From SAR92 clade bacterium H455 (GTDB lineage: Bacteria > Pseudomonadota > Gammaproteobacteria > Pseudomonadales > Porticoccaceae), in assembly GCA_024802545.1 (NCBI GenBank), contig CP103416.1, forward strand, positions 372,001 through 436,000: a DNA stretch of 64,000 nt, written 5' to 3'. Positions 26,810-54,960 of this stretch are shown one piece after another. The first letter of the stretch is position 1. Each line of letters begins with the position of its first letter. A program made the position numbers and the translations under genes. Below the pieces are notes generated by a model. That model did no database searches. It saw only the letters and a list, made by a program, of their open reading frames with translations, and had not been told where the DNA came from.

Positions 26810-27201
26810 GGGGGCGTTTTGGATTCGACGACGGCTACAAAACCTCCGGTGCATGCCGAGATGGTGACCAATCTCGTTAATCCAAAGTCGCAAACTTATA
26901 GTTGCCAACGACGACAACTACGCACTAGCTGCTTAAACCCCAGTAAGGTGCCGTTTGACTGGAGCCGTGCTTATGCGTCCAGAGTTTCAAACCCTTAGGG
27001 GCGAGAGACGCTCAAATGTCATATCTCATAAGATCGTGAAGAAGCTTGTTCGGGGCGGACTCACTAAACACTTACCGAAATCGTGCGTTGTACGCCCTGT
27101 CAGTCGGGTTTCAGCGTACTAAAACTAAAGACTGAACTAAGCATGTAGAGCCGTAGGCAGCGGGCTGGCGGACGCGGGTTCAATTCCCGCCGCCTCCACC
27201 A
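26810..27201 (+). ncRNA. ssrA: Transfer-messenger RNA (tmRNA)
   Basis: About 392 nt. The 5' end GGGGGCG pairs with CGCCTCC before the terminal ACCA (seven base pairs, one G-U), forming the tRNA-like acceptor, and TTCAATTCCC near 27180 is the T-loop. The tag frame GCCAACGACGACAACTAC... (26904-26936) encodes ANDDNYALAA followed by TAA, a gammaproteobacterial proteolysis tag. It rescues stalled ribosomes with SmpB. Its 3' end is the attachment site of the island that follows, which restores an intact gene. Confidence 0.97.
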
Positions 27202-27364: not shown

Positions 27365-28615
27365 ATGCCAAAAATCACTAGGCCACTTACCAATACAGAA
27401 ATAAACAACGCACGAGGCAAGGCTAAAGAATACAACTTAGCTGATGGCCTCGGTCTTGCGTTGCGTGTTAGACCGGGTGGTGAAAAGTATTGGATATTCA
27501 ATTATCAGCGTCCGATCACCAAGATACGCGCAAATATTAGTCTGGGTATCTACCCTACAGTGTCATTGTCCTCCGCAAGAGTCATTCGCTCTGAATACCG
27601 AGATCTACTAGCCCAGAGTATCGACCCCAAGCATCATCGAAAGGACAATCTGGCTGCCAATCAAGCAGCGGCAGCCAACACACTCGAGAAAGTGGCGGCT
27701 GATTGGTTGTGTGTAAAGAAAAGCAAAGTTAGCAATGACCATGGAGATGATATCTGGCGCTCATTAGCCCTGCATATCTTTCCCTATATGGGACAGGAGC
27801 CAATAAACTCGATTACTGCCCCGGCAGTCATAAGCGTGCTCAAGCCGATAGAAGCAAAAGGGAGCTATGAGACGGTCAAACGTTTATGTCAGCGGCTGAA
27901 CGAGGTCATGGTCTTTGCTGTGAATACTGGAATCATTCTCGGCGCCAATCCTCTATCCGGAATTAAAGACGCCTTTATTGCACCGACTAAAAAGCATTTG
28001 CCCACTTTATTGCCACATCAGCTTGATGATTTGGTTAGGCGAATCTATGGCGCCTCAATTCGTTTAACGACCCGTAATTTAGTGCTGTGGCAGCTACATA
28101 CCATGGTAAGGCCAAGCGAAGCGGCAGCAGCTGAGTGGGGAGAAATTAATCTTGATGCAAAGCTTTGGACCATCCCAGCGTCACGGATGAAAAAGAAGCG
28201 CCAGCATATAGTGCCGCTATCTTCAGAGATGATAGAGATCCTCGAAGAGATGCGAGTCATAAGCAGCCGCAGTCAGTTTATCTTCCCCTCTGAGGTAAAA
28301 GCTCTGGAGAGCATGAATTCTCAAACGGCCAATATGGCTTTAAAGCGAATGGGCTACGAGGGCCAATTGGTCTCGCATGGAATGAGGTCTTTAGCGAGTA
28401 CGATTTTGAATGAACACGGCTTTGCGCCAGACATTGTTGAGTCAGCACTAGCACATACTGACAAAAATACTGTAAGAGCCGCATATAACCGCGCTGAGTA
28501 CGTCGATCGGCGCAGGGATATGATGGACTGGTGGTCTAAACGAGTTAGCCAATCACGCACCACAGACTCAACTGTTGGTGCACTTTCAATTACGGAGCAA
28601 GAGGCTTCGCAGTGA
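27365..28615 (+). CDS. Tyrosine-type site-specific integrase (P4-like)
   Basis: A 416-residue phage-type integrase. The N-terminal arm-binding DUF4102 domain (1-90) contains KEYNLADGLGLALRVRPGGEKYWIFNY, followed by a SAM-like core-binding domain (about 105-200) and a catalytic domain with R249 in TMVRPSEA, H338-x-x-R341 in SHGMRSLAST, H at LAHTDKNTV and nucleophile Y374 in AAYNRAEY. It is expected to recombine the island into ssrA. It lies 163 bases from the attachment core. The ATG has no well-spaced ribosome-binding sequence, though AGGAG occurs further upstream. Confidence 0.95.
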   Translation: MPKITRPLTNTEINNARGKAKEYNLADGLGLALRVRPGGEKYWIFNYQRPITKIRANISLGIYPTVSLSSARVIRSEYRDLLAQSIDPKHHRKDNLAANQAAAANTLEKVAADWLCVKKSKVSNDHGDDIWRSLALHIFPYMGQEPINSITAPAVISVLKPIEAKGSYETVKRLCQRLNEVMVFAVNTGIILGANPLSGIKDAFIAPTKKHLPTLLPHQLDDLVRRIYGASIRLTTRNLVLWQLHTMVRPSEAAAAEWGEINLDAKLWTIPASRMKKKRQHIVPLSSEMIEILEEMRVISSRSQFIFPSEVKALESMNSQTANMALKRMGYEGQLVSHGMRSLASTILNEHGFAPDIVESALAHTDKNTVRAAYNRAEYVDRRRDMMDWWSKRVSQSRTTDSTVGALSITEQEASQ

Positions 28616-34622: not shown

Positions 34623-34711
34623 AATGTTTCATTTAGTAAAACTGATTACCATTTTGCTTTATTTGCATCTAAAATAAAGATCAAAAGTTAGATCCTGGAG
34701 TGAAAAGCAAG

Positions 34712-35083
34712 ATGACTGCACAACTAAAGCAACGACCAGACCCAGCTGTTGTCCTGTCAAAAGCACTACTTAATGCATCCAAACAGCTGACACTCAAGCA
34801 AGATGAGCTGGGCAAGGTGATTGGTGTGCATAGAACCGCGATAACACGCTTAAAGCAAAACCTGGACCTGAGTCCCGACAGTAAACAAGGTGAACTGGCC
34901 CTGCTGTTGATCAGAGCCGCCCGGGCACTATTTGCACTCACCGGGGGTGACCAGGCCTGGATCAAACATTTCATGCGCTCACAGAACAAGCTTACTGGCG
35001 GTGTTCCTGCTATACAGGTACAAACTGTTCAGGGACTTATGCGTGTGGTGACCTGCCTGGATGCGATACGAGGCAAGGTGTAA
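34712..35083 (+). CDS. Xre/MbcA/ParS-type antitoxin
   Basis: A 123-residue antitoxin. A helix-turn-helix (about 20-55: QLTLKQDELGKVIGVHRTAITRLKQ) is followed by a toxin-binding domain (about 65-120) with FALTGGDQAWIKHFMRSQNKLTGGVPAIQV, the MbcA/ParS signature. It binds its promoter and neutralises the RES toxin encoded next. ATG 34712 fits better than GTG 34700, which lies inside the GGAG ribosome-binding sequence. The toxin's coding homology begins two bases after its stop, implying tight coupling. Confidence 0.92.
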   Translation: MTAQLKQRPDPAVVLSKALLNASKQLTLKQDELGKVIGVHRTAITRLKQNLDLSPDSKQGELALLLIRAARALFALTGGDQAWIKHFMRSQNKLTGGVPAIQVQTVQGLMRVVTCLDAIRGKV

Positions 35084-35085
35084 CC

Positions 35086-35859
35086 ATAATCTGGGCTGAC
35101 TGTAACGGCGAAGCCTGCATCAGACCCATTGAGGGGTTGTTATACCGCCTGGTGGAAAATCAGGAACAAGTCGCCACACTAGGCTATGTGGACACACTCG
35201 AAGAACAGGCGGTGCTTGAAGAGTTACTTGAAACCTCAAAACCCGACTATCCTGATACCTACCCAAACACCCTGCACTACCTGCTCAAAACACCTTTTCG
35301 TTATCCTCCCTTACACTGGGGATCTCGATTTGGCCGTATCCATGAACCTAGCCTGTTCTACGGCGGAAAATCACTTGAAGTAACCCTGGCAGAATCCGCC
35401 TTCTACCGCTTTGTGTTTCTCCGCTCAATGGAAGGAACGGCACCTGCGGCAAAATTGAACACCGAGCATACGCTGTTCACAGTGGGTTATAAGACCGATA
35501 AAGGTATCCAGCTTCAACAGCCACCCTTTAGTGCATTCACGGCAGCATTGCGCCACCGCACTGAGTACTCCCTGACTCAAGCATTAGGCACCAACATGAG
35601 AGAAGCTGGAGTAGAAGCCTTTGAATATCTATCGGCCCGTTCAGCTCGTGATGAGCTGTGCGCAGCCCTCTTTACCCCCATCGCCTTCACTGACCAGGCG
35701 CCGCAATCCAGAGAAAACTGGTTTTGTGAACTAACCCAGGAACAGGTAACCTTTAAAGCAATGGGCTCCCAACAGGTCTTCAGCTTTTGTCTGGAGGAGT
35801 TCTCTGTTAACAGGCTGTTTCCTATGCCAGCCCCATCCGCACCACGGAACCCGGTATGA
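35086..35859 (+). CDS. RES-domain toxin (NAD+-degrading), possible ATA start
   Basis: About 257 residues of RES family homology. It includes LYRLVENQEQVATLGYVDTLEEQ, WGSRFGRIHEPSLFYGG, AESAFYRFVF and YLSARSARDELCAAL, with the Arg/Glu/Ser active-site pattern of NAD-phosphorylase RES toxins. The first ATG/GTG/TTG in frame is TTG 35137, but GAGGGG abuts it with no spacing, and family members extend about 17 residues upstream. The frame stays open to 35086, where ATA stands five bases after AAGGTG and two bases after the antitoxin stop. So either ATA is used as a rare start or an ancestral ATG was lost and the toxin is weakened. Confidence 0.85.
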   Translation: MIWADCNGEACIRPIEGLLYRLVENQEQVATLGYVDTLEEQAVLEELLETSKPDYPDTYPNTLHYLLKTPFRYPPLHWGSRFGRIHEPSLFYGGKSLEVTLAESAFYRFVFLRSMEGTAPAAKLNTEHTLFTVGYKTDKGIQLQQPPFSAFTAALRHRTEYSLTQALGTNMREAGVEAFEYLSARSARDELCAALFTPIAFTDQAPQSRENWFCELTQEQVTFKAMGSQQVFSFCLEEFSVNRLFPMPAPSAPRNPV

Positions 35860-41656: not shown

Positions 41657-44600
41657 GTGCATCCATATGCGGAGCTGATTAAAGAAAAGATTTTAAGCCT
41701 GCGTCCCAAACTAATGGACACATCAAGGCGCAATTCATTAATCAATAATACAATGTCCGCCCGAGCAACGTCATTTATCCGCATTGTTGATGAAAAGCCG
41801 CAGAATATTTTTGACAAACTAGTTAATGATGAGGCTAAGCTGGTCTTGTCTGCTCTTCCTTCCTTGGAAGAAGATCCACTGGACGAAAACAATCGTGAAT
41901 TCCAAGAGGCGTTACAGGTGTCTTACGCCGCCGATAATAAATATCGAGAATTTATTGATAATATTGATTCAGATAACGATGAAAACGCCTTTGAAAAGCT
42001 TGCTGAGGCTGACAGAGAATTAAAAGATCGCACTCGAGAATTATTGGGGTATGCCCCGAGGATTACTTCGCCGGAGGCAAAATCCCTCGCCACGCATGCG
42101 AGGAATCATGGCATCGAACCAAGTTTCGAGCTGCCAGCGCAAGACTACCAAGCCCATGATGAAAGGCATGAAGATAACGAATTACAGACTTTAGTATTAA
42201 AAAAACAGCTTGATGCTCGCCTGGCTAGAATTCGCTCACGAGACATTACAATGTCTGAAGAAAGAGGCCTAAAAACGCTTTACTTAACTTTAGGTTTTCT
42301 TGTTTGGAAAGATCCCGCATCTAGTGACCCCCTAGCTCAATTCAAGTCACCGCTAATACTCCTTCCGATTACTCTAGATAGTGAAGCGACATCTCAAGGA
42401 AAGGAGTTTTCAATAAGCTCACGAGATGATCCTATCTTCAATCCAGTTCTAAAACATAAGTTAAGTACTGAACTAGGAATCGAACTATGGGAGCCTGAAA
42501 ATCAGTTTACCGATCTCGATATAGAAAAATATTTTTCATATTTAATGGAAATATTTTCCGACTCGCCTGGATGGAGAGTTTCGAGACAAGCGGTCATAGG
42601 CGTCTATCCTTTCCAAGGAATAGAGTTATACAATGATATCAATCCCGAGGAGTTAGATTTTTCAAAATTTGACATTATTTCGCAGTTATTTTCGCGTACA
42701 AATTCATCGGGGGAGGAGTCTTCTTATCAACAATATACAGAAGAGGATATTGAAACTGACCAGGCTCAATTACTAGTCCCGAAATTAGTAGTTGATGCCG
42801 ATTCATCTCAATTTCTATCGTTGATGAAGGTGGCGTCAGGCCAAAATATCGCTCTCGAAGGCCCTCCTGGTTCGGGAAAAAGTCAAACTATTGTAAATTT
42901 AATTGCTAATGCTATCAGTCAAAACAAGAAGGTCCTTTTTGTCGCCCAAAAAGGCACTGCCCTTGAAGTGGTTCTTTCTCGAATGGCAGCACTCAATCTT
43001 GATTCACTGGTATTACCCTTGATGGGGCGAAAAGGGGATAAGGAAAAGTTTTATGAGGCACTCCAGCTCCGTCTTTCTTTATCGTCGCAGCAGTCAAATA
43101 AAAATATATCATTTGAAGCTATTAAGGATGATATTACAGCTAAGAAAAATAACATATCGAGGTATATAGGAACTCTAAAATCGAATGTTGCAGGAACGTC
43201 TATAACGGTCCATCAGGTTCTTGGCCTTGCTACTGCCAAAAAAGAGAGCTCCCAAAGAAGTAGTGAAAGCTATGCACATCTTTTGCCAGATTTTTCAGTT
43301 TTGGATCGGCACTTAGATATTGGGTTTGTCGAAAGAATATCTACTAAGGTGGAGTCTTGGGGTAGCCAATTATTGGAGGCCAAGCTAGTTGAACTTTCGG
43401 TATGGCCATACTTAAGTGGGGACAACCTTGATCATTTGCTACTTGAAAAAATAGCTAGTCAAGCCAGAGTTTTACAATCTGAGTTAGCTTTGCTCATAAA
43501 TAACGAGTCTCCTGATAACTTTGACTCGCTAACGGCCCTCATGACCAATTCCAGTGATGAGCTGAGTCTAAGTTTGGTTGCAGAATCTTGTAGAAATATT
43601 CCAAATCTGAAAGATTCTTGGCTGATAGTGATTAACGATAAGGACGTCTTTGTTGATTCTCTAAATGAATATTTAAATCTTATGTCAGCGAAGGAAAATC
43701 TCACTGACTCCACCGGGATTTCCTGGGAATTGCTTAGTGACCTCGCCAAACATGGATCAGAGTTCGAGATGTTACTGAATATTTCTGAAAAATCGCAAAT
43801 GGAAAATATCTCCCATGACATCATAGTTGATATTAAAAAGAAAAATATCGAAACTCTAGATAAACTTCAAAATGTAAAATTGTCCGTATCAAAATTCGAA
43901 TCACAAACGGAAGTTGATTCACCAAGCCTACAAGAGATGAAGTTATTATCTGTGTTAGCAGCAGAGTTCCCTATTCTCCGTGACCCAAAGATATCTCATG
44001 AAATAAGTTCTCATGGCATAGATGAATTGATGAATACCGCTATTGAAGCGCGTGATATTTTAGCAACGATTAAGACTAACGTTATATCTATCGATCTGAT
44101 GCCATCACGCCAGCGACTTTTCGAAATGCATGCAATAGTGCGAGATTCAGGGTCTCTAAGCGCATTTTCAGCCCATTTTAGAAAATGTAAAAAAGAATGT
44201 AATGCTATTTTTGGATCTTCTAAATTTATAAAAAGTACTGCCGAATTTTACTTAAGTGAATTATTGGATGCGCAAAAGGCTTGGAATAAAAGATCTATTG
44301 AAGCTATTTTTGGGACTGTCATAGATAAAGATACCAGAAGTAAAGTGATTGAAGTTCAAAAAAGTTTAGCCTTGATCTCGGAAAAGTTGGCGGCTTATAA
44401 AATTTCGATACCGGAATTTTTAAAATTACTGTCACCCACAGTGCTGTCTTTCTTTGACAAACATCAGCTGGTTTTTATCGATGTTGGGTTTAACTGGAGC
44501 TGGGGAGATCTCGATACCCGAATAGCTACGCATGAGGCAATAATCGCAAATACTACTGAGTTATTGGATAGTGAGCTTCTGTCTACTCTTGACAAAGCTG

Positions 44601-47059
44601 AGGTTACTTCTATTGCCGGTGTGAAATCTATTTCATCAACAATTGAAGAGGCAATCACCTTATCCTCAAAGGACGCGAGTATAGAAGGATCGATAAGACA
44701 CCATGCCGATATCGTTTTTGAAGGGACAGAGATTTCACGCAGGTATGTAGATGATCTGCTAATTATTTTAAATTTTTATTCGATGATTGATAGCCGTCTC
44801 ATAGATAACAAAGACACGGCTAAAAACGATAGTGATATGTATCAGAAATTTTACGAATTGTTAAGTCGATTAATCTCAGTCCAAAAAGAAGCTGATATTT
44901 TTTATAGTCATTGTAGTGAATACGGATTCTCTGCTAAACGCCCAGAATCAATATCCGCTATGTATGAGCAAATAAAGTCTACGGTTATTGATAGTGAAGG
45001 GCCGGCCAAATTAATCCGAATTTCCATCATAAAGGATGAAATGGATGAATTGGGTCTACTTCCATTTCTGGAGGCCACTTTAGCAACCAAAAGTTCAGAT
45101 GTTTTAGGCGAAAATATGGAGCTTGCCGTAATCCAAAAGCTATCCGAAAGTGCCTATGGACAGTTTGGTTCCATTATCAGTGAGTTCTCGGGCGCGAGAC
45201 TAGACCAGCTGAGAAGTGAGTTCCAGATGCTAGATCGTCGCCTTATTAATCAAAGCAGTAATGAGGTATTAAGTGGGGCGCTAGCTTCTGCTAGGCCTTC
45301 GTTAGGAGTAAGCAGAGGTAAGAAGTCCGAATATTCGGATTTAGGGTTAATAGAACACCAGTTGGGCCTTAAACGTAAAATGAGTCCTACCAAACTTGTA
45401 AAGCGGTCAATAGGAGCGCTAACGGAGATTCACCCTTGCTGGATGATGGTTCCAACCGCAGTGGCAAGCTTTTTGCCTCGTGAGGAGATATTTGACTTAG
45501 TAGTGATAGATGAAGCGTCACAAATGACTCCTGAGCATTCGATTAGTGCGTTAATGCGAGCTAAGCAAGCCGTGATTGTAGGGGATACAAATCAGCTACC
45601 GCCAACTAACTTCTTTAGGGCGGCTGCAGATGTTGAGGAAGAAGACGGGGACGTAGCGACAATTGAAGAATCAATTCTTGAGTTGGCTAATACTGCATTC
45701 CGGCCAAAACATCGTTTACTTTGGCATTATCGATCTAGGCATGAGTCTTTGATCTCATTCTCAAACTATTATATCTATGACAATGACCTTGTTATATTTC
45801 CGTCGCCCGGTGGTGAGCGAGATAAGATGGGTGTTGATCTTGTAAGAGCCGACGGGGTATATCAAAGCGGAATTAATCCTGTTGAAGCGACTGTAGTAGC
45901 TGATGCCATTGTGGAGTTTATGGAGAACGACAGCCATCGTTCGCTTGGTGTTGTCACTATGAACCAGGCTCAAATGGAGCAGATTGATTCAATGGTCAGG
46001 AGGCATGCAGAAACAAATTTAAAAATCTCTGACTATTTAGAAAAATGGGATATGTTAGACGGCGGCCTACAGCGATTCTTCGTCAAAAACATAGAGAATG
46101 TCCAAGGAGATGAGCGCGATGTCATCTTTATAAGTACAGTCTATGGAAAGGACTCTTTAGGAAAATTTAGGCAAGCATTTGGGCCGATAAATGGTTCGGC
46201 GGGTAAACGTAGATTAAATGTTCTGTTTACCCGTGCTAAGGAAAAGATTACTACATTCACCTCAATACCACTAGATCAGCTTAATCCTGGTGATCACAAT
46301 GAGGGGGCCATACTGCTAAAGCGTTGGCTCGAATACTCTGGAACCGGAGTGGTCGGTGAGAGATTAAGGGATTCAGCACGCTCCATGTTCGGTCCGGATT
46401 CACCGTTCGAAGAACATGTTATCGAGCAAATTGAATCTTTGGGATACGTGGCAGTGCCGCAAGTTGGAGTATCTAACTACTTTATCGATATTGGAGTGAG
46501 ACATCCAAATTATGATCTCGGATATATATGTGGCGTTGAGTGCGATGGAGCCAGTTATCATTCGAGTAAGAGCGCAAGAGACAGAGACGTACTACGCCAA
46601 GAGGTTCTAGAGGGATTAGGCTGGAATTTATATCGTATTTGGTCAACTGACTGGTTTAAAAATTCAAAATTGCAAACCGAGCGTCTCAAAGAATATTTGG
46701 ATAAAAAGCTAGAGGAAAAACTGAAGAATCAAACGCTCACAGTGCGGCCGATAGAAGCAGCCGAATCCAGGGAAGTAAGTGAGGACATTAATGCTGACGC
46801 TAATAGGGATGAGAAGCGATTAGTTACAATTGGCAGTAAAGTAGTCCTCGAATATTCGAGTGGTCCGCGCGCAGGAATGAGGTCAAAGTTTGTGGTTGTT
46901 GATACTAAATCAAGTGCTAGTCATACACCAGGTTATGATCCGTTACCAGTAATGAGCCCGCTAGGCGCAGAGGTTATAGATTCTCAAGAGGGAGATATTG
47001 TTAGCTTTGAGGCTAATGGGGCACTAACAGATGTAGTGATTTTGGAACTATTATCATGA
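41657..47059 (+). CDS. DUF4011-SF1 helicase-nuclease with GreA/B-like C-terminal domain
   Basis: 1800 residues, cytoplasmic. Domain order: DUF4011 N-terminus (1-300, LMDTSRRNSLINN, LYLTLGFLVWKD); helicase motif I GPPGSGKS (402-409); an 840-residue, helix-rich insertion; motif II DEAS (1285-1288); motif III GDTNQLPP (1309); motifs IV-VI ending RRLNVLFTRAK (R1526). A Vsr/MTES_1575-type PD-(D/E)xK nuclease follows (about 1590-1680, GVECDGASYHSSKSARDRD with E1628 and D1630). The last 80 residues (about 1720-1800) resemble the FKBP-like C-terminal domain of GreA/GreB (SPLGAEVIDSQEGDIVSFE). GTG 41657 follows GGAGG. It heads a four-gene operon with membrane-channel partners. The DUF4011-helicase-Vsr core matches the Hhe defence architecture as I recall it; the added partners and GreAB domain do not. 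Confidence 0.9.
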   Translation: MHPYAELIKEKILSLRPKLMDTSRRNSLINNTMSARATSFIRIVDEKPQNIFDKLVNDEAKLVLSALPSLEEDPLDENNREFQEALQVSYAADNKYREFIDNIDSDNDENAFEKLAEADRELKDRTRELLGYAPRITSPEAKSLATHARNHGIEPSFELPAQDYQAHDERHEDNELQTLVLKKQLDARLARIRSRDITMSEERGLKTLYLTLGFLVWKDPASSDPLAQFKSPLILLPITLDSEATSQGKEFSISSRDDPIFNPVLKHKLSTELGIELWEPENQFTDLDIEKYFSYLMEIFSDSPGWRVSRQAVIGVYPFQGIELYNDINPEELDFSKFDIISQLFSRTNSSGEESSYQQYTEEDIETDQAQLLVPKLVVDADSSQFLSLMKVASGQNIALEGPPGSGKSQTIVNLIANAISQNKKVLFVAQKGTALEVVLSRMAALNLDSLVLPLMGRKGDKEKFYEALQLRLSLSSQQSNKNISFEAIKDDITAKKNNISRYIGTLKSNVAGTSITVHQVLGLATAKKESSQRSSESYAHLLPDFSVLDRHLDIGFVERISTKVESWGSQLLEAKLVELSVWPYLSGDNLDHLLLEKIASQARVLQSELALLINNESPDNFDSLTALMTNSSDELSLSLVAESCRNIPNLKDSWLIVINDKDVFVDSLNEYLNLMSAKENLTDSTGISWELLSDLAKHGSEFEMLLNISEKSQMENISHDIIVDIKKKNIETLDKLQNVKLSVSKFESQTEVDSPSLQEMKLLSVLAAEFPILRDPKISHEISSHGIDELMNTAIEARDILATIKTNVISIDLMPSRQRLFEMHAIVRDSGSLSAFSAHFRKCKKECNAIFGSSKFIKSTAEFYLSELLDAQKAWNKRSIEAIFGTVIDKDTRSKVIEVQKSLALISEKLAAYKISIPEFLKLLSPTVLSFFDKHQLVFIDVGFNWSWGDLDTRIATHEAIIANTTELLDSELLSTLDKAEVTSIAGVKSISSTIEEAITLSSKDASIEGSIRHHADIVFEGTEISRRYVDDLLIILNFYSMIDSRLIDNKDTAKNDSDMYQKFYELLSRLISVQKEADIFYSHCSEYGFSAKRPESISAMYEQIKSTVIDSEGPAKLIRISIIKDEMDELGLLPFLEATLATKSSDVLGENMELAVIQKLSESAYGQFGSIISEFSGARLDQLRSEFQMLDRRLINQSSNEVLSGALASARPSLGVSRGKKSEYSDLGLIEHQLGLKRKMSPTKLVKRSIGALTEIHPCWMMVPTAVASFLPREEIFDLVVIDEASQMTPEHSISALMRAKQAVIVGDTNQLPPTNFFRAAADVEEEDGDVATIEESILELANTAFRPKHRLLWHYRSRHESLISFSNYYIYDNDLVIFPSPGGERDKMGVDLVRADGVYQSGINPVEATVVADAIVEFMENDSHRSLGVVTMNQAQMEQIDSMVRRHAETNLKISDYLEKWDMLDGGLQRFFVKNIENVQGDERDVIFISTVYGKDSLGKFRQAFGPINGSAGKRRLNVLFTRAKEKITTFTSIPLDQLNPGDHNEGAILLKRWLEYSGTGVVGERLRDSARSMFGPDSPFEEHVIEQIESLGYVAVPQVGVSNYFIDIGVRHPNYDLGYICGVECDGASYHSSKSARDRDVLRQEVLEGLGWNLYRIWSTDWFKNSKLQTERLKEYLDKKLEEKLKNQTLTVRPIEAAESREVSEDINADANRDEKRLVTIGSKVVLEYSSGPRAGMRSKFVVVDTKSSASHTPGYDPLPVMSPLGAEVIDSQEGDIVSFEANGALTDVVILELLS

Positions 47060-47122
47060 TCACCTTTATCTACACAAAGTGATGGTCAACTTTAAATTGG
47101 TAAGTAAGGGAAAATAGCAATA

Positions 47123-48565
47123 ATGGCAAAAAATAATAGTGGTGGAATTCCAAAGCCAGCAGAGAATGAGTCTAATGTTGAAAACAACAGCACCGAGACC
47201 TACACCCGATGGCTTACAAAACCATTTGGTTCGATGATTGGTGGGAAAGACCCTCTTGACCCCTTGGCTGCGCAGAGCAGTTTAAAGGCAGGATTTTTGG
47301 TGACTTTAGGAATTGGTACCCTATTTATTTTTATTTTTAAGGATACAGGAATTTGGAATATTGCATTTTGTACTGCCGTTATGGGCCTGTATTGGGGCTT
47401 TGCGAGTAGCAGGACTCATACTATTTCGGCGCGTGCTGTTTTTGCTGATAGCTTTTACTACCTGGGCTTCCTTTTTACTTTCATAGCGTTGATATCAACA
47501 ATGATTGGTATTTCTTCAGATGACTTCCGCCCTGAGACTATCGTAGGTCAAATAGGCCCTGCTCTGACTACCACTGTTATCGGTATGGCTGTACGAATCT
47601 ACATCACGCAATTTGATGCGATCACCTCTGAGCCCGAGGTTGAGGTTTTGTCTGGATTAGGACAATTGTCAGGAAACCTTAGCTCTGCGATATCAGAACT
47701 GGACTTGATGGTGAGACAACATGTAAAGACATCTCAAGCTCAGCAAAAGACAAATACCGCTCTTACAGAGAAGGTTTCTGACCAAATCGAGCGCCTTGAT
47801 TTTACGTCTGCAGTGTCTGCATTAAAGGGTTTTGGCGGTGAAATCAACTCTCTCACAACCCAGATTGATCTCCTTTCGAAAGTTACAGGCCAGGCTGAAG
47901 TCGGAGCAGCGAAGATGACTAGTTCAATCTTCAGAGCCACGACTGAGCTAGATAAAGCTACAAATGAGTTTTCCAGGTATCGAGATATTGGGAGTGATTA
48001 TGATCTCGCTGCCCAATCTATTGGTGCTGTTACCGAGGTCGCGGGCCAGGTTGCTAATTCTTTAGAGGCTGTTAACAATAATGGAATTTTTAGTATTATC
48101 GCAGAACTTGACGCAAAAGCTGGCGCTATTAATAAGGAGTTAGAAGCGACAGACCAGCATATAACAAGGCTAAGCGTTGCTGCCGATGAAGCCCAAAACA
48201 AAATTGGTAGTTCCTTGGCTAAGCTAGACGAGTCAACAGGTGCTGTTAAGGGAGTCTCGGAAAAGCTTGCCGACCTAGATGGGCTTACTCAAGATCTGCT
48301 TGACACGAATAATATTATCCGGTCATTACGAACGGAAGTTGAGGGAATAAATACACAAATTAGTCAAGAACTCACAAAAGCGCGCGATGAAATTTCAAAG
48401 ACCTCAGGCATGGCGGCAGATTTGTTAAAGCAAGAAATTACCCCAATCACTAATGCAATTAATAAGATATCTGAAGATTTTGATCCGATTGAGAAGAATC
48501 TGCATAATTTGGATGGCAGGGTTAGGAGGTCGATTAGTGATGTTCTCGACTTTCTAAATAAATAG
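47123..48565 (+). CDS. MotA/TolQ/ExbB-like membrane channel with long coiled-coil tail
   Basis: 480 residues. Four membrane spans (about 55-72, 78-95, 110-130, 141-162) are followed by a 300-residue cytoplasmic coiled coil. Span four, IGPALTTTVIGMAVRIYIT with T149-T151, matches the channel-lining threonine helix of MotA/TolQ/ExbB proton channels. The topology (two spans, then two conserved spans, then a long tail) matches ZorA of the Zorya defence system better than transport ExbB, which has only a short tail. It starts 63 bases after the helicase gene and ends one base before the next. A role as ion-driven motor or membrane-damage sensor is inferred. Confidence 0.75.
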   Translation: MAKNNSGGIPKPAENESNVENNSTETYTRWLTKPFGSMIGGKDPLDPLAAQSSLKAGFLVTLGIGTLFIFIFKDTGIWNIAFCTAVMGLYWGFASSRTHTISARAVFADSFYYLGFLFTFIALISTMIGISSDDFRPETIVGQIGPALTTTVIGMAVRIYITQFDAITSEPEVEVLSGLGQLSGNLSSAISELDLMVRQHVKTSQAQQKTNTALTEKVSDQIERLDFTSAVSALKGFGGEINSLTTQIDLLSKVTGQAEVGAAKMTSSIFRATTELDKATNEFSRYRDIGSDYDLAAQSIGAVTEVAGQVANSLEAVNNNGIFSIIAELDAKAGAINKELEATDQHITRLSVAADEAQNKIGSSLAKLDESTGAVKGVSEKLADLDGLTQDLLDTNNIIRSLRTEVEGINTQISQELTKARDEISKTSGMAADLLKQEITPITNAINKISEDFDPIEKNLHNLDGRVRRSISDVLDFLNK

Positions 48566-48566
48566 G

Positions 48567-49337
48567 ATGAAAAGTCGATCTAATGAGCGCAAAAGCGACT
48601 TACGAAATGCCTCAGTGCTTGAAATCATTGTCGCAATAATAATTGTTTTAGTTATATTGCTACATAGCAACAATATAGATTTTGGCGATCAAATTGATGA
48701 GTTAGTGCAACAGATCGATTCTTTAAGAAAAGAGAATTCCGCGTTGATCAAGGAATTATCGGAGCAAAAATCTCAGAATGCAGAGATGCAGGAGGATATT
48801 ACAGCGTTAAGAGAGAAGATCATTTTTTATGAAAATATGCTCTCTTCGGAAAAAGATGCTGCGGAAATCATCGAAAAACTAGCGGCCGAGAATGCAAGGC
48901 TCGAGGCAATAAAAGATAGTCTGGTTGAAAAAATTGGTATATTAGAATCACAATTAGCAATTGCCATAAAGAAACTTAAAGATGAAGGTAAAAGCGGTAT
49001 CGACAAGCCTTTTTGTAGGTTGCCCGTTTTAGATGATCAGCAGAGACAAAAACACAGGTGGCTCGGTCAAATTAGTTCGGGAGAAGGCGGTATCTATTTT
49101 TCTGTTGACCCTAAGCTTGATAAGACTGAAGCTTTTAAGATTCCTGGTGTACGCATGCTTGTTTTAGGCTCGCCTCTGAATAACCAAGAGTTTATTCGTG
49201 CTGCGAGATTAGCTTTTAGCCACTCAAAGCAGAGAGATCCGGAATGTCGCTACAATGTGCAGATCAAAGTCGGTCCTAATGAACCGGCTAGTTTTATTCT
49301 ATTAATCGAAAAATATTTTTACAAAAGTATTATTTAG
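48567..49337 (+). CDS. MotB/ExbD-like single-span protein with coiled coil
   Basis: 256 residues. A short basic N-terminus leads to one membrane span (about 17-33, VLEIIVAIIIVLVILLH) with an acidic residue, E19, near its cytoplasmic end, the position of the ion-carrying Asp in MotB/ExbD/ZorB. A coiled coil (about 40-140) precedes a C-terminal periplasmic domain (about 150-256, with CRLPVLDD and ECRYNVQIKV) that is not an OmpA-type peptidoglycan-binding fold I recognise. ATG 48567 starts two bases after the preceding stop. Predicted to form the 5:2-type stator with the upstream protein. Confidence 0.65.
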   Translation: MKSRSNERKSDLRNASVLEIIVAIIIVLVILLHSNNIDFGDQIDELVQQIDSLRKENSALIKELSEQKSQNAEMQEDITALREKIIFYENMLSSEKDAAEIIEKLAAENARLEAIKDSLVEKIGILESQLAIAIKKLKDEGKSGIDKPFCRLPVLDDQQRQKHRWLGQISSGEGGIYFSVDPKLDKTEAFKIPGVRMLVLGSPLNNQEFIRAARLAFSHSKQRDPECRYNVQIKVGPNEPASFILLIEKYFYKSII

Positions 49338-49340
49338 AAT

Positions 49341-49850
49341 ATGAAAAATAATGCCACTATTGCCGATTATGAACTTTCAAGAAAGCTATTAGATTTCCAG
49401 TTTCGATTGATTGAAAAAAGGTATGGTCGGCTAGCAGTCCAATTTGCTAAGACTTTTGTGCGAGGTGAATTAAATAAAGAGCGACTAGTTTGGATTGAAG
49501 TCTTTTTTATAATACTTTATAAGACTGAAAAGACTTTTGTTTTCTGCAATTTACTCTACGACAAGTTTCGAAACAGATTTCCTATATTATTTGACAATTT
49601 ATTAGTGTACGAGGTTTGTCTTCTTATAGCTCGTGGCGTTCTGCTTTTGATTCTCATAATATTAGGTGCGGCGCTATTTTCATTCGAGTTAAGGAACTTA
49701 GTACCAGGACTCTTAGTGACGTTGTTGCATTTTTTTGGATGGGTTTACAAATATAGGCGACGGCCTGCTAAATGTGCATATTTGTTGATTGGTCAATGTA
49801 TTTCGGTTCCCCTATTTGCGGTATATTTTGGTTGGACGGCCTTTTTATGA
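49341..49850 (+). CDS. Small membrane protein, operon partner of the helicase system
   Basis: 169 residues. The N-terminal 60 are soluble and basic (KRYGRLAVQFAKTFVRGELNKERLVW), then about three membrane spans (about 88-113, 119-136, 144-165). No family recognised. It begins three bases after the preceding stop, so it is part of the same operon. The AT-rich third-codon use matches the three genes before it. Could be an assembly or immunity partner; nothing in the sequence decides. Confidence 0.65.
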   Translation: MKNNATIADYELSRKLLDFQFRLIEKRYGRLAVQFAKTFVRGELNKERLVWIEVFFIILYKTEKTFVFCNLLYDKFRNRFPILFDNLLVYEVCLLIARGVLLLILIILGAALFSFELRNLVPGLLVTLLHFFGWVYKYRRRPAKCAYLLIGQCISVPLFAVYFGWTAFL

Positions 49851-52360: not shown

Positions 52361-53344
52361 ATGGATGTTTCTATGCTTTTAGCGACTCACCAGTTTGATG
52401 CTAACGAACTATATGCGCAGTATCCTCTCGTTATCACTGATTTTAATAAATCGATAGTATTCAAGCTGAGTCTAAACGAGCATTACACTGAATCACCTGT
52501 TATTGGGTATACGCGCTGGGCGCAGATGGGGTTGCCTGAGGAGGTTTATAAGACTGACGTTAAATTAGTTAAGCATAGCGGATATTTCTCATATCCCTCT
52601 TCATCTGATCAATGTGTTGAGTGGCACCTAAATTTTGCTCACGAAGATGTATTCAGTTTTTATGGTGGACCTTTATTTGCTCAAGACGAAATGCAGGCAG
52701 CTGAGCACCCCATCCTCGGCTGTCTTCGCGAAGCAATCCTAGATATGGGTATCGACCGCACTACAGTACAAAACGGTCAAGCAACGCCAATTCTTATTAC
52801 TGGTTTGGAACGTCGATGTGAAGTCGCTACAGACCGAAATGCTGAATTAGATCGACCATATGGGTTATATGGTAACGAATTCCAGTTTGCTTCTGAGGAA
52901 GCAATTAGGACCGCCACAACAGTTCTTAGCCCCCCAACGCTGACTAATATCATTGCTATGGAGTCACCGCAGCCAGATTTTGGTCTATATACGAGAGATC
53001 AAATTAGATTCATCCTGGCGTCAGCAATCACTGGGTTCTCTGCTGCAGTAAAGCTTAGTAAAGAAATAAACGAGGATATTGAAGTCTCAATACACACGGG
53101 ATATTGGGGATGTGGTGCATACGGTGGTAACCGTGAGCTTATGCCTATCCTGCAGATCATTGCAGCTTACTGCTCAGAGGTAAGCGTTCTACATTTTCAT
53201 ACAGGTGGGGATGATAGAGGCTTTCTCGCCGCGTTAGAGACTCTCGAAGAAATCATGCCTGAGTGGGAGGAAATAAGCTTAGATGAGTTGATTGAAAGCA
53301 TCCTATCCTTGCGTTACGACTGGGGCATTAGCGACGGTAATTAG
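52361..53344 (+). CDS. Poly(ADP-ribose) glycohydrolase-like macrodomain protein
   Basis: 327 residues. The pattern LFAQDEMQAAEHPILG (A107-Q108-D109-E110) resembles the catalytic GGG-x-QEE loop region of PARG, and TGYWGCGAYGGNRELMPILQIIAAYCSEV (247-257) resembles its second conserved block TGNWGCGAFGGD. Residues 110-112 may supply the catalytic acidic residue, here D/E-E order rather than QEE. The predicted activity is removal of ADP-ribose from proteins or nucleic acids. ATG 52361 follows GGAGAAA. It is divergent from the HD operon. Immunity against an ADP-ribosylating toxin or a phage factor is the inference; other macrodomain types are possible. Confidence 0.65.
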   Translation: MDVSMLLATHQFDANELYAQYPLVITDFNKSIVFKLSLNEHYTESPVIGYTRWAQMGLPEEVYKTDVKLVKHSGYFSYPSSSDQCVEWHLNFAHEDVFSFYGGPLFAQDEMQAAEHPILGCLREAILDMGIDRTTVQNGQATPILITGLERRCEVATDRNAELDRPYGLYGNEFQFASEEAIRTATTVLSPPTLTNIIAMESPQPDFGLYTRDQIRFILASAITGFSAAVKLSKEINEDIEVSIHTGYWGCGAYGGNRELMPILQIIAAYCSEVSVLHFHTGGDDRGFLAALETLEEIMPEWEEISLDELIESILSLRYDWGISDGN

Positions 53345-53397
53345 CTACTTAGGCGCTCACGAACAAGGTTTATATTCAGAGACTTTTGAGGACTATT

Positions 53398-54213
53398 ATG
53401 AAAAGCATCATTATAAGAACCATTGTTCTTGCAGTTATGCTTGTTGTGGTTGGCATCTATGTTAATAGCGGCACTAAGCCTAGAATGAACACCCAATCTC
53501 TTCACGTTCTAACCGATAGTGAGTCTCACGAAACGCTTCGAGTTGCGCTTCTAAGTGATCTCCACGTCAAAAACTCACCTGATGCCATCGCTGATCTAGC
53601 GGAGCTATGGTCAGAGGTGATTGAACAAACTCCCGACATTATATTACTCGGTGGGGACTACATTAACGATGGAGCTTCGAACCAGGACATAGCCTCAATT
53701 GGGCCCGCTATCGCACATATCTTTCGAGCGTCAGGTGATATACCTGTTGTGGCTGTTCTTGGAAATCATGATCACTGGTCTGGAGCTGAATCCTGGACGG
53801 AGTATCTATCTGAAGCTGGAGTGATAGTGCTGGAGAATGAAACGGTTGTGCTAGATGCCGTTGGTACCTGTATACGCGGATTTGGTGACGCCTTTACTGA
53901 TCACTTCGAATATGTAGACTTTCCCACCGCCTGCGACGATCGTCTTAAGATCACTCTAACGCATGACCCCGCCGGAGCATTCAAACCTAAGGTAGAAGGG
54001 CTTGTATTAGCGGGCCATACCCACTGCGGTCAAATATCTATGCCTTTTCTCGGGCCTTTGTACGTGCCTACTCAGGCGCCAAAAGGAGCCCATTGCGGAC
54101 TATACAAAGACGAACAACGACAGGTCTTTGTGAGTTCAGGCATTGGAACTAGCGTTATACCTCAGCGCTTCAATGCTAAAGCCTCTTGGGACCTCATTAC
54201 GATTAATTATTAA
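53398..54213 (+). CDS. Metallophosphoesterase, membrane-anchored
   Basis: 271 residues. An N-terminal membrane anchor (about 5-24), then the metallophosphoesterase motifs LLSDLH, GGDY, LGNHDHWSG, THDP and AGHTHCGQ in order, giving a complete dinuclear metal site of the YkuE/YaeI type. The phosphoesterase domain faces the periplasm if the anchor is a signal anchor. ATG 53398 with AGGA upstream is preferred. It lies 53 bases after the PARG-like gene and immediately inside the island's right end; it may be unrelated cargo. Confidence 0.9.
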   Translation: MKSIIIRTIVLAVMLVVVGIYVNSGTKPRMNTQSLHVLTDSESHETLRVALLSDLHVKNSPDAIADLAELWSEVIEQTPDIILLGGDYINDGASNQDIASIGPAIAHIFRASGDIPVVAVLGNHDHWSGAESWTEYLSEAGVIVLENETVVLDAVGTCIRGFGDAFTDHFEYVDFPTACDDRLKITLTHDPAGAFKPKVEGLVLAGHTHCGQISMPFLGPLYVPTQAPKGAHCGLYKDEQRQVFVSSGIGTSVIPQRFNAKASWDLITINY

Positions 54214-54267: not shown

Positions 54268-54324
54268 GCGGATTTTCAAACGAATTAAACCTATATTAAT
54301 CAGTAGCTTGCAGTATAGGTGCAG

Positions 54325-54346
54325 TTCCCGCCGCCTCCACCAAATA
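54325..54346 (+). repeat. Right attachment core (attR)
   Basis: 22-bp exact copy of the core at 27184-27205, flanked on the left by island DNA and on the right by a terminator stem. Confidence 0.85.
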
Positions 54347-54960
54347 ACAAACCTCAACCCGAAAGGGTTGGGGTTTTTTATTGGCCGTTGCAGAGGGGAT
54401 GAACCTGCGGAGCGGGTTCACAAAAAGTCAGGATTGACGTTTTGGACGCCGAAGGCGGGCGCAAGCCCGAGGGCCATGGACGGCCCGAGTCAATTCCCGC
54501 CGCCTCCACCAAAAAACCAGAAAAGGTCACCCGAAAGGGTGGCCTTTTTTGGTTTCTGGCTGCTACTGGGAATGAAGCCGCGAAGCGGGTTCAGCCGAAC
54601 CACGAAGTGGTGAGACAACGCGGGAGCGCAGCGACGGCGGCCCCGAAGGGGTGAGGACGAAGGACGAATAATTCCCGCCGCCTCCACCAAATAACAAACC
54701 TCAACCCGACAGGGTTGGGGTTTTTTTATTGGCCGATGATTTGAGAATGAACCCGCGCAGCGGGTTCAGCCGAGCCATCGTTTCAATAGAAAGGGTGGCG
54801 AGACAACGCGGGAGCGCAGTGACGGCGGCCCCTTTTATTTGAGAGGGGGGTGAGGACTAAGGGCGAATAATTCCCGCCGCCTCCACCACTAAAAAGGCCA
54901 TCTCTTCTGCCTATTTGTAGATGCCCAGCCCTATGCACGCAAAGGAGGTGCATTTTTTTG
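54325..54960 (+). repeat. Tandem array of ssrA 3'-end copies with terminators and hairpins
   Basis: Four copies of the tmRNA-end core begin at 54325, 54494, 54672 and 54871 (spacing 169, 178, 199 bp). The first three are followed by a terminator hairpin built as stem-GAAA/GACA-stem plus T-run (for example GGTCACCC-GAAA-GGGTGGCC-TTTTTT) and, further on, a GC hairpin (GAACCCGC-GCA-GCGGGTTC or variants). Two of the spacers also share a stretch near GACAACGCGGGAGCGCAG. The last copy is followed by TGCAC...GTGCATTTTTTT near 54946. No protein gene can be supported in 54214-54991; apparent frames are repeat-driven. Confidence 0.85.

Follow-up and report, generated by a model that had tools for sequence, protein, structure and literature searches.

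A putative mobile operon combining a Tol/Exb-type ion motor with a DUF4011 helicase-nuclease in a SAR92 clade bacterium

Here we describe a four-gene operon from SAR92 clade bacterium H455 that we interpret, with near-even confidence, as mobile and probably anti-phage, following the principle of Zorya but assembled from a motor of the Tol/Exb type and a DUF4011 helicase-nuclease. The operon is located at positions 41657-49850 of the analyzed window, that is, the 64,000 nucleotides between positions 372,001 and 436,000 of contig CP103416.1 (coordinates without a locus number are those of the window); the host genome comprises 2.96 Mb in one contig. All four genes are on the + strand, separated by 63, 1 and 3 bases according to the analysis of open reading frames (ORFs), in agreement with the gene order and spacing reported in an earlier reading of the same DNA (hereinafter, the original prediction), which proposed a new defense system coupling a helicase-nuclease to a membrane motor. 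The main strength of our interpretation is the recurrent closeness of the motor family to nucleases, and its main weakness is the lack of a second operon.

By profile comparison, gene 1 (41657..47059, +; 1800 amino acids (aa), GTG start) encodes a DUF4011/SF1-helicase/MTES_1575 protein related to Hhe. All the domains listed in the original prediction, namely DUF4011, SF1 helicase and nuclease, score above the Pfam cut-offs (DUF4011, 101 bits; AAA_11, 59; AAA_12, 59; MTES_1575, 119), and the two residues of this protein that it had proposed for mutagenesis, K408 and E1628, fall within the Walker A motif (GPPGSGKS at 402) and the nuclease motif (D1611, E1628, D1630), respectively. We take these residues, along with D1285/E1286 of the DEAS motif, to be catalytic. 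Among the PADLOC models, PDC-S37 ranks first (918 bits), with two separate stretches matched in a search that gives neither a cut-off nor a system rule, and Hhe is next (582 bits); the NCBIfam scores are below the cut-offs for both Hhe (898 bits; cut-off 2000) and ProA (864 bits; cut-off 1500). The previously proposed link to Hhe holds for the domain architecture, and the score is below the equivalog cut-off of that family. The C-terminal end of the protein contains a sub-threshold stretch resembling the C-terminal part of GreA/GreB (20.0 bits; cut-off 26.9), and a similar stretch is above the cut-off in three of the eight C-termini of gene 1 relatives that were scanned. Relatives of gene 1 were detected in 23 of 369 genomes of the class, the host included (E 1e-20 or better), and phage sequences yielded a single partial match, in an unannotated record.

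Genes 2 and 3 probably encode an ion-motor pair of the MotA/TolQ/ExbB superfamily, an assignment supported both by profiles and by a structural model. In the product of gene 2 (47123..48565, +; 480 aa; membrane core at about 47-163, helical tail at about 170-480), the Pfam MotA_ExbB match is sub-threshold (18.3 bits; cut-off 22.9), and hhalign aligns 76 columns to MotA/TolQ/ExbB-type targets (91.6%, E 8e-7), which, however, were pre-picked with a profile of the same family and so are not independent; two of them are MotA_ExbB proteins according to Pfam. The channel helix with a triple threonine noted in the original prediction is found at T149-T151, and its estimate of a tail of about 300 residues is matched by low-confidence predicted helices that extend, apart from brief interruptions, between residues 170 (approximately) and 479. 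Helical bundles and coiled coils make up most of the Foldseek rows listed for gene 2, with no stator among them; a ZorA row was found on a second look. When the solved structures were searched by sequence with the full motor alignment, coiled coils dominated the results, and the ZorA chains 8qyd and 8vvn among them cannot be considered proof; the gene 3 alignment likewise retrieved mainly coiled-coil proteins, with a best E of 0.011.

The product of gene 3 (48567..49337, +; 256 aa) contains the three elements originally described, that is, a single membrane span (14-34), an acidic residue within it (E19) and a coiled coil (39-139), followed by a C-terminal domain (about 147-256) in which C150 and C227 are invariant across 40 rows of the alignment. 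The nearest folds of this domain, at a suggestive level, are TolR and ExbD, and OmpA is not among the best 25 of 45 Pfam families listed, suggesting a periplasmic domain that is TolR/ExbD-like rather than OmpA-like; the MotB-like label that the protein previously carried is changed accordingly. A C-terminal domain of the CR type is present in 43 of 64 partner proteins, in 40 of them at E 1e-11 or better (eight are seeds). With 101 residues, the coil would measure about 15 nm if straight and could carry the C-terminal domain well into the periplasm. Gene 4 (49341..49850, +; 169 aa) contains hydrophobic stretches, as expected of the small membrane protein it was thought to encode, and scans with PADLOC, Pfam and NCBIfam gave no family match.

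Under the mechanism that we propose, the products of genes 2 and 3 would form an inner-membrane ion motor, with a 5:2 stoichiometry by analogy. Within it, E19 of gene 3 would meet the threonine ring of gene 2 (T119, T151), with these roles suggested by conservation. The coil and the C-terminal domain of gene 3, taken as periplasmic, would reach toward the peptidoglycan or the outer membrane and might respond to the envelope damage caused by an entering phage. Rotation would be driven by ion flow, and the cytoplasmic tail of gene 2, with its 300 residues, would, by analogy with the published Zorya II, recruit or activate the gene 1 protein near the entry site. The latter, in which the domains and key residues are recognizable, would unwind and cut the incoming DNA. 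Judging by its position, the product of gene 4 may be an accessory membrane part.

The connection between such motors and nucleases recurs in other genomes. The motor pair belongs to an unnamed family, for which a scan of genome contigs identified 248 relatives. Of these, 80 loci were kept, along with one viral contig, with up to 10 kb per side; together with loci from genome searches, the set includes 96 loci, 93 of them distinct after the removal of three near-identical copies. A six-frame search detected the channel gene in all 96, and in 21 of 83 loci less than 3 kb is available on one side of it. An SNase-type gene is present in 21 of the 93 distinct loci, and in all 21 no more than 2.8 kb separates the channel frame from the nearest copy. 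In four loci, the partner subunit itself contains a nuclease domain downstream of an OmpA domain, all above the Pfam cut-offs: a staphylococcal-nuclease domain in L051 (10136-11902) and L108 (2714-4726), and GmrSD_C, along with a sub-threshold HNH match, in L052 (6891-8696, -) and L130 (10861-12609). These fused domains are presumably periplasmic.

The same loci bring up another possibility, namely, that mobile elements simply carry the motor along as an envelope machine, which would act in Tol/Ton-like force transmission or control how DNA is taken up or conjugated at the envelope, and that the helicase is the sole defense gene. The TolQ/ExbB-type core and the apparently TolR/ExbD-like domain are consistent with such a role, as is the VWA-like frame (assigned by eye) found no more than 400 bases from the channel frame in 78 of the 93 distinct loci, given that a published survey puts forward proteins with a VWA domain as possible force transducers in motors of this kind (PMC12204202). 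However, neither a TolA/TonB-like partner nor the VWA-like gene nor the 494-aa gene was recognized in the window operon, and Zorya, TerY/PP2C and nuclease genes occur near the motor relatives; we consider this explanation improbable. In L054, the motor is followed at a distance of 5.5 to 7 kb by PP2C (255 bits) and TerY (423 bits) genes, and relatives of both are present in L100.

A conserved membrane gene of about 490 aa is often found upstream of the VWA-like gene, and a cassette consisting of this gene, the VWA-like gene (by eye), the MotA-like channel and the MotB/TolR-like partner was observed in L049, L051, L053, L054, L055, L063 and other loci. The VWA-like gene matches no Pfam family in L008 and only DUF3619, below the cut-off, in L054; in L008 (the same as L063), the one locus scanned, it has no PADLOC match, and the 490-aa gene has weak ones. 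The motor family members scanned likewise have weak PADLOC matches only. In L189 (7527-13159, -), the motor pair adjoins three genes that look, by eye, VWA-like, PP2C-like and kinase-like, an arrangement reminiscent of a TerY-P triad, with weak PADLOC matches for the kinase-like gene only. In L069 (10073-14917) and L102 (1219-6063), the channel subunits are about 1200 aa long and the partner has glycine at the conserved glutamate position, so that the ion path in these motors may be lost or different.

Several observations weigh against the interpretation of the window operon as a single system. The operon is known from one genome and is unique in the sample of 80 of the 248 scan relatives. 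A DUF4011 gene is present in one of the 93 distinct motor loci (L049; extended as L195), and a tblastn search with gene 1 against all 96 produced matches in L049 and its sister copy L050 only. The motor channel or partner gene was detected in none of 16 DUF4011 loci (13 from genomes, three from plasmids) by six-frame profile search and tblastn, with the contig ending no more than 1.3 kb after the match in L174, L175 and L177; these loci also contain no SNase-type gene, in 0.25 Mb of sequence compared with 1.62 Mb for the motor loci. The hhalign comparison of gene 2 with two ZorA sequences is not significant (1.3%). The architecture of gene 1 is, by its domains, complete without other genes, and Hhe works as a single gene. 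A promoter-like match (9/12) at 47097-47124 overlaps the end of the gap before gene 2. Furthermore, one study lists a DUF4011 gene that flanks a defense hotspot as core in every Pseudomonas aeruginosa isolate it covers (PMC10250203), so DUF4011 by itself is no proof of defense.

Accordingly, it is quite plausible, if short of an even chance, that the genes are independent neighbors in a defense island: a single-gene DUF4011 defense protein, similar to Hhe or PDC-S37, and a Tol-type motor module (genes 2-4) that is separate from it and would have a role of its own. This would account for the absence of a second operon from the loci examined, for the complete architecture of gene 1 and for the 63-base gap before gene 2, as opposed to 1 and 3 bases within genes 2-4. 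It would also fit the closest motor relatives, which come without a helicase and next to Zorya genes: gene 2 groups most closely with two proteins from SAR116 bacteria, at 34% identity and with a clade support of 96/94, and in L103 (3352-9717) the motor is divergent to genes for ZorA, ZorB and ZorC (213, 221 and 201 bits), whereas in L058 (481-4679) the gene divergent to the motor is ZorA-like by eye. Against it are the shared strand, the close spacing, the failure to find a clear promoter or terminator in the 63 bases between genes 1 and 2, and the repeated occurrence of the motor family near nuclease genes. In both SAR116 loci, two motor types are thus seen side by side, and the motor is followed by a 219-aa gene, without a Pfam match (scanned in L058), that is not among the matches listed for gene 4; the best match of gene 4 among the ORFs of the motor loci has an E of 0.57.

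The one locus with both components pulls in both directions with regard to the single-system interpretation. In L049, the DUF4011 protein (1861 aa) is encoded on the same strand as the motor and starts 3.1 kb after the partner gene, with two opposite-strand genes in between, one of them SNase-type, and with SbcD-like and YhaN-like genes (named by eye) after it; the whole arrangement, from the VWA-like/motor cassette through the SNase-type and DUF4011 genes to the SbcD-like/YhaN-like genes, spans L195:1843-19966 (genome G527), with the sister L050/L196. Given the 3.1 kb distance and the opposite-strand genes, this is a shared neighborhood rather than an operon. Hence, the original proposal of a motor coupled to a helicase-nuclease in defense is supported in part: the domains and the membrane-motor pair stand, but the outcome named there as refuting it, a lack of conservation of the motor genes next to DUF4011 helicases, was largely observed. 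A conserved new system with this gene set is therefore not demonstrated, and what may hold is a motor-nuclease arrangement acting in the manner of Zorya.

The operon is part of a mobile island, as the original prediction had recognized from an integrase. The tyrosine integrase (27365..28615, +) adjoins the tmRNA gene (26810..27201, +), which serves as the left attachment site, and at the right, four imperfect copies of the tmRNA 3' end (54317..54888, +), with 3 to 5 mismatches per 26 bases, form tandem attachment-like repeats, which suggests repeated integrations at the tmRNA site. By eye, three of the four copies are followed by hairpin-like sequence. The island also encodes a transposase, a primase-type protein and a PARG-like protein. 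Gene 1 is confined to the host among 50 genomes of the genus (E 1e-10), and gene 2 among 56 relatives (E 0.001), which fits local gain; a tblastn search for plasmid relatives of genes 2 and 3 found none. Within the same island, we observed a pair consisting of an Xre/MbcA/ParS antitoxin and an RES-domain toxin (34700-35859) and, at the right end, the PARG-like macrodomain protein together with a metallophosphatase (52361-54213).

To our knowledge, the known case of a rotary ion motor in phage defense is Zorya. A broader, rather unlikely possibility is that the widespread unnamed Tol/Exb-type motor family is a general platform for nuclease defense at the envelope, signaling in one branch to SNase or GmrSD_C/HNH nucleases that are adjacent or fused to the partner subunit and, in the window, to a cytoplasmic DUF4011 helicase-nuclease, which would mean that the Zorya principle was invented a second time, independently. 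If a motor of the Tol/Exb type indeed acts in defense, with another periplasmic domain and another nuclease than in Zorya, the defense-motor principle arose more than once, and envelope-damage sensing by such motors becomes testable; the motor family, with its 248 relatives and with VWA-like and SNase-type genes in 78 and 21 of the 93 distinct loci, respectively, is a good target apart from the window operon. Among the papers listed by searches of the open-licence full-text literature, we recognized none describing the gene set of the operon or the VWA-like/motor/nuclease cassette. Sections of a 2025 survey of stators report many non-flagellar motors with added domains of unknown function, with Zorya as a remote relative (PMC12505986).

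Comparison with known systems supports the original view that no named one fits the operon, in that no PADLOC model fits the motor genes. Like Hhe, PDC-S37 and ProA, gene 1 combines DUF4011, an SF1 helicase and a nuclease, but it falls short of the NCBIfam cut-offs for Hhe and ProA and has motor genes downstream of it that are absent from the 16 other DUF4011 loci examined. The motor resembles TolQR/ExbBD in the channel profile matched by gene 2 and, tentatively, in the nearest fold of the gene 3 domain, and differs in the 300-residue helical tail and the coil of about 100 residues; no TolA or TonB force transducer is among the Pfam and NCBIfam families listed for the four operon proteins. With the cassette of the 490-aa, VWA-like, MotA-like and MotB/TolR-like genes, the window shares homologous motor genes but lacks the first two components, in whose stead the helicase-nuclease and gene 4 are present. 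Four motor relatives have partner proteins above the OmpA cut-off, unlike gene 3.

The comparison with Zorya bears on the proposed mechanism. In the portions of the literature on which we draw, Zorya types I-III consist of ZorAB with ZorC/ZorD, ZorE or ZorF/ZorG (PMC11890865, PMC8565338), type III having been defined by the authors of PADLOC (PMC8565338); the ZorA5B2 motors require ion flow, the cytoplasmic tail and the periplasmic domain for defense, and ZorAB II recruits the nickase ZorE (PMC11890865). When the PADLOC models for Zorya and Hhe were applied, as originally suggested, gene 1 matched Hhe as described above, and the motor pair did not qualify as ZorAB: no ZorA model is among the 13 matches of gene 2 (E<=1), and ZorB matches only at E 0.21 (9.1 bits). 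Relatives match ZorA models weakly (best scores: L008, 22.9; L004, 18.6; L189, 21.3 bits), compared with 213 bits for the true ZorA of L103. ZorC, ZorD, ZorE, ZorF and ZorG have no match in the four operon proteins or in the eight neighboring island proteins scanned. Membership in Zorya was thus rejected on the basis of the profiles, the glutamate in the span (E19) where ZorB has aspartate, and the lack of Zorya effector genes; in addition, the gene 3 domain looks TolR/ExbD-like whereas ZorB contains an OmpA-like peptidoglycan domain, and the effector in the window is a DUF4011 helicase-nuclease in place of ZorC/ZorD, ZorE or ZorF/ZorG. The window operon, then, is not a member of Zorya and at best works like it, with a MotA-like membrane core in gene 2 and the same general plan of motor core, tail, periplasmic reach and DNA enzyme.
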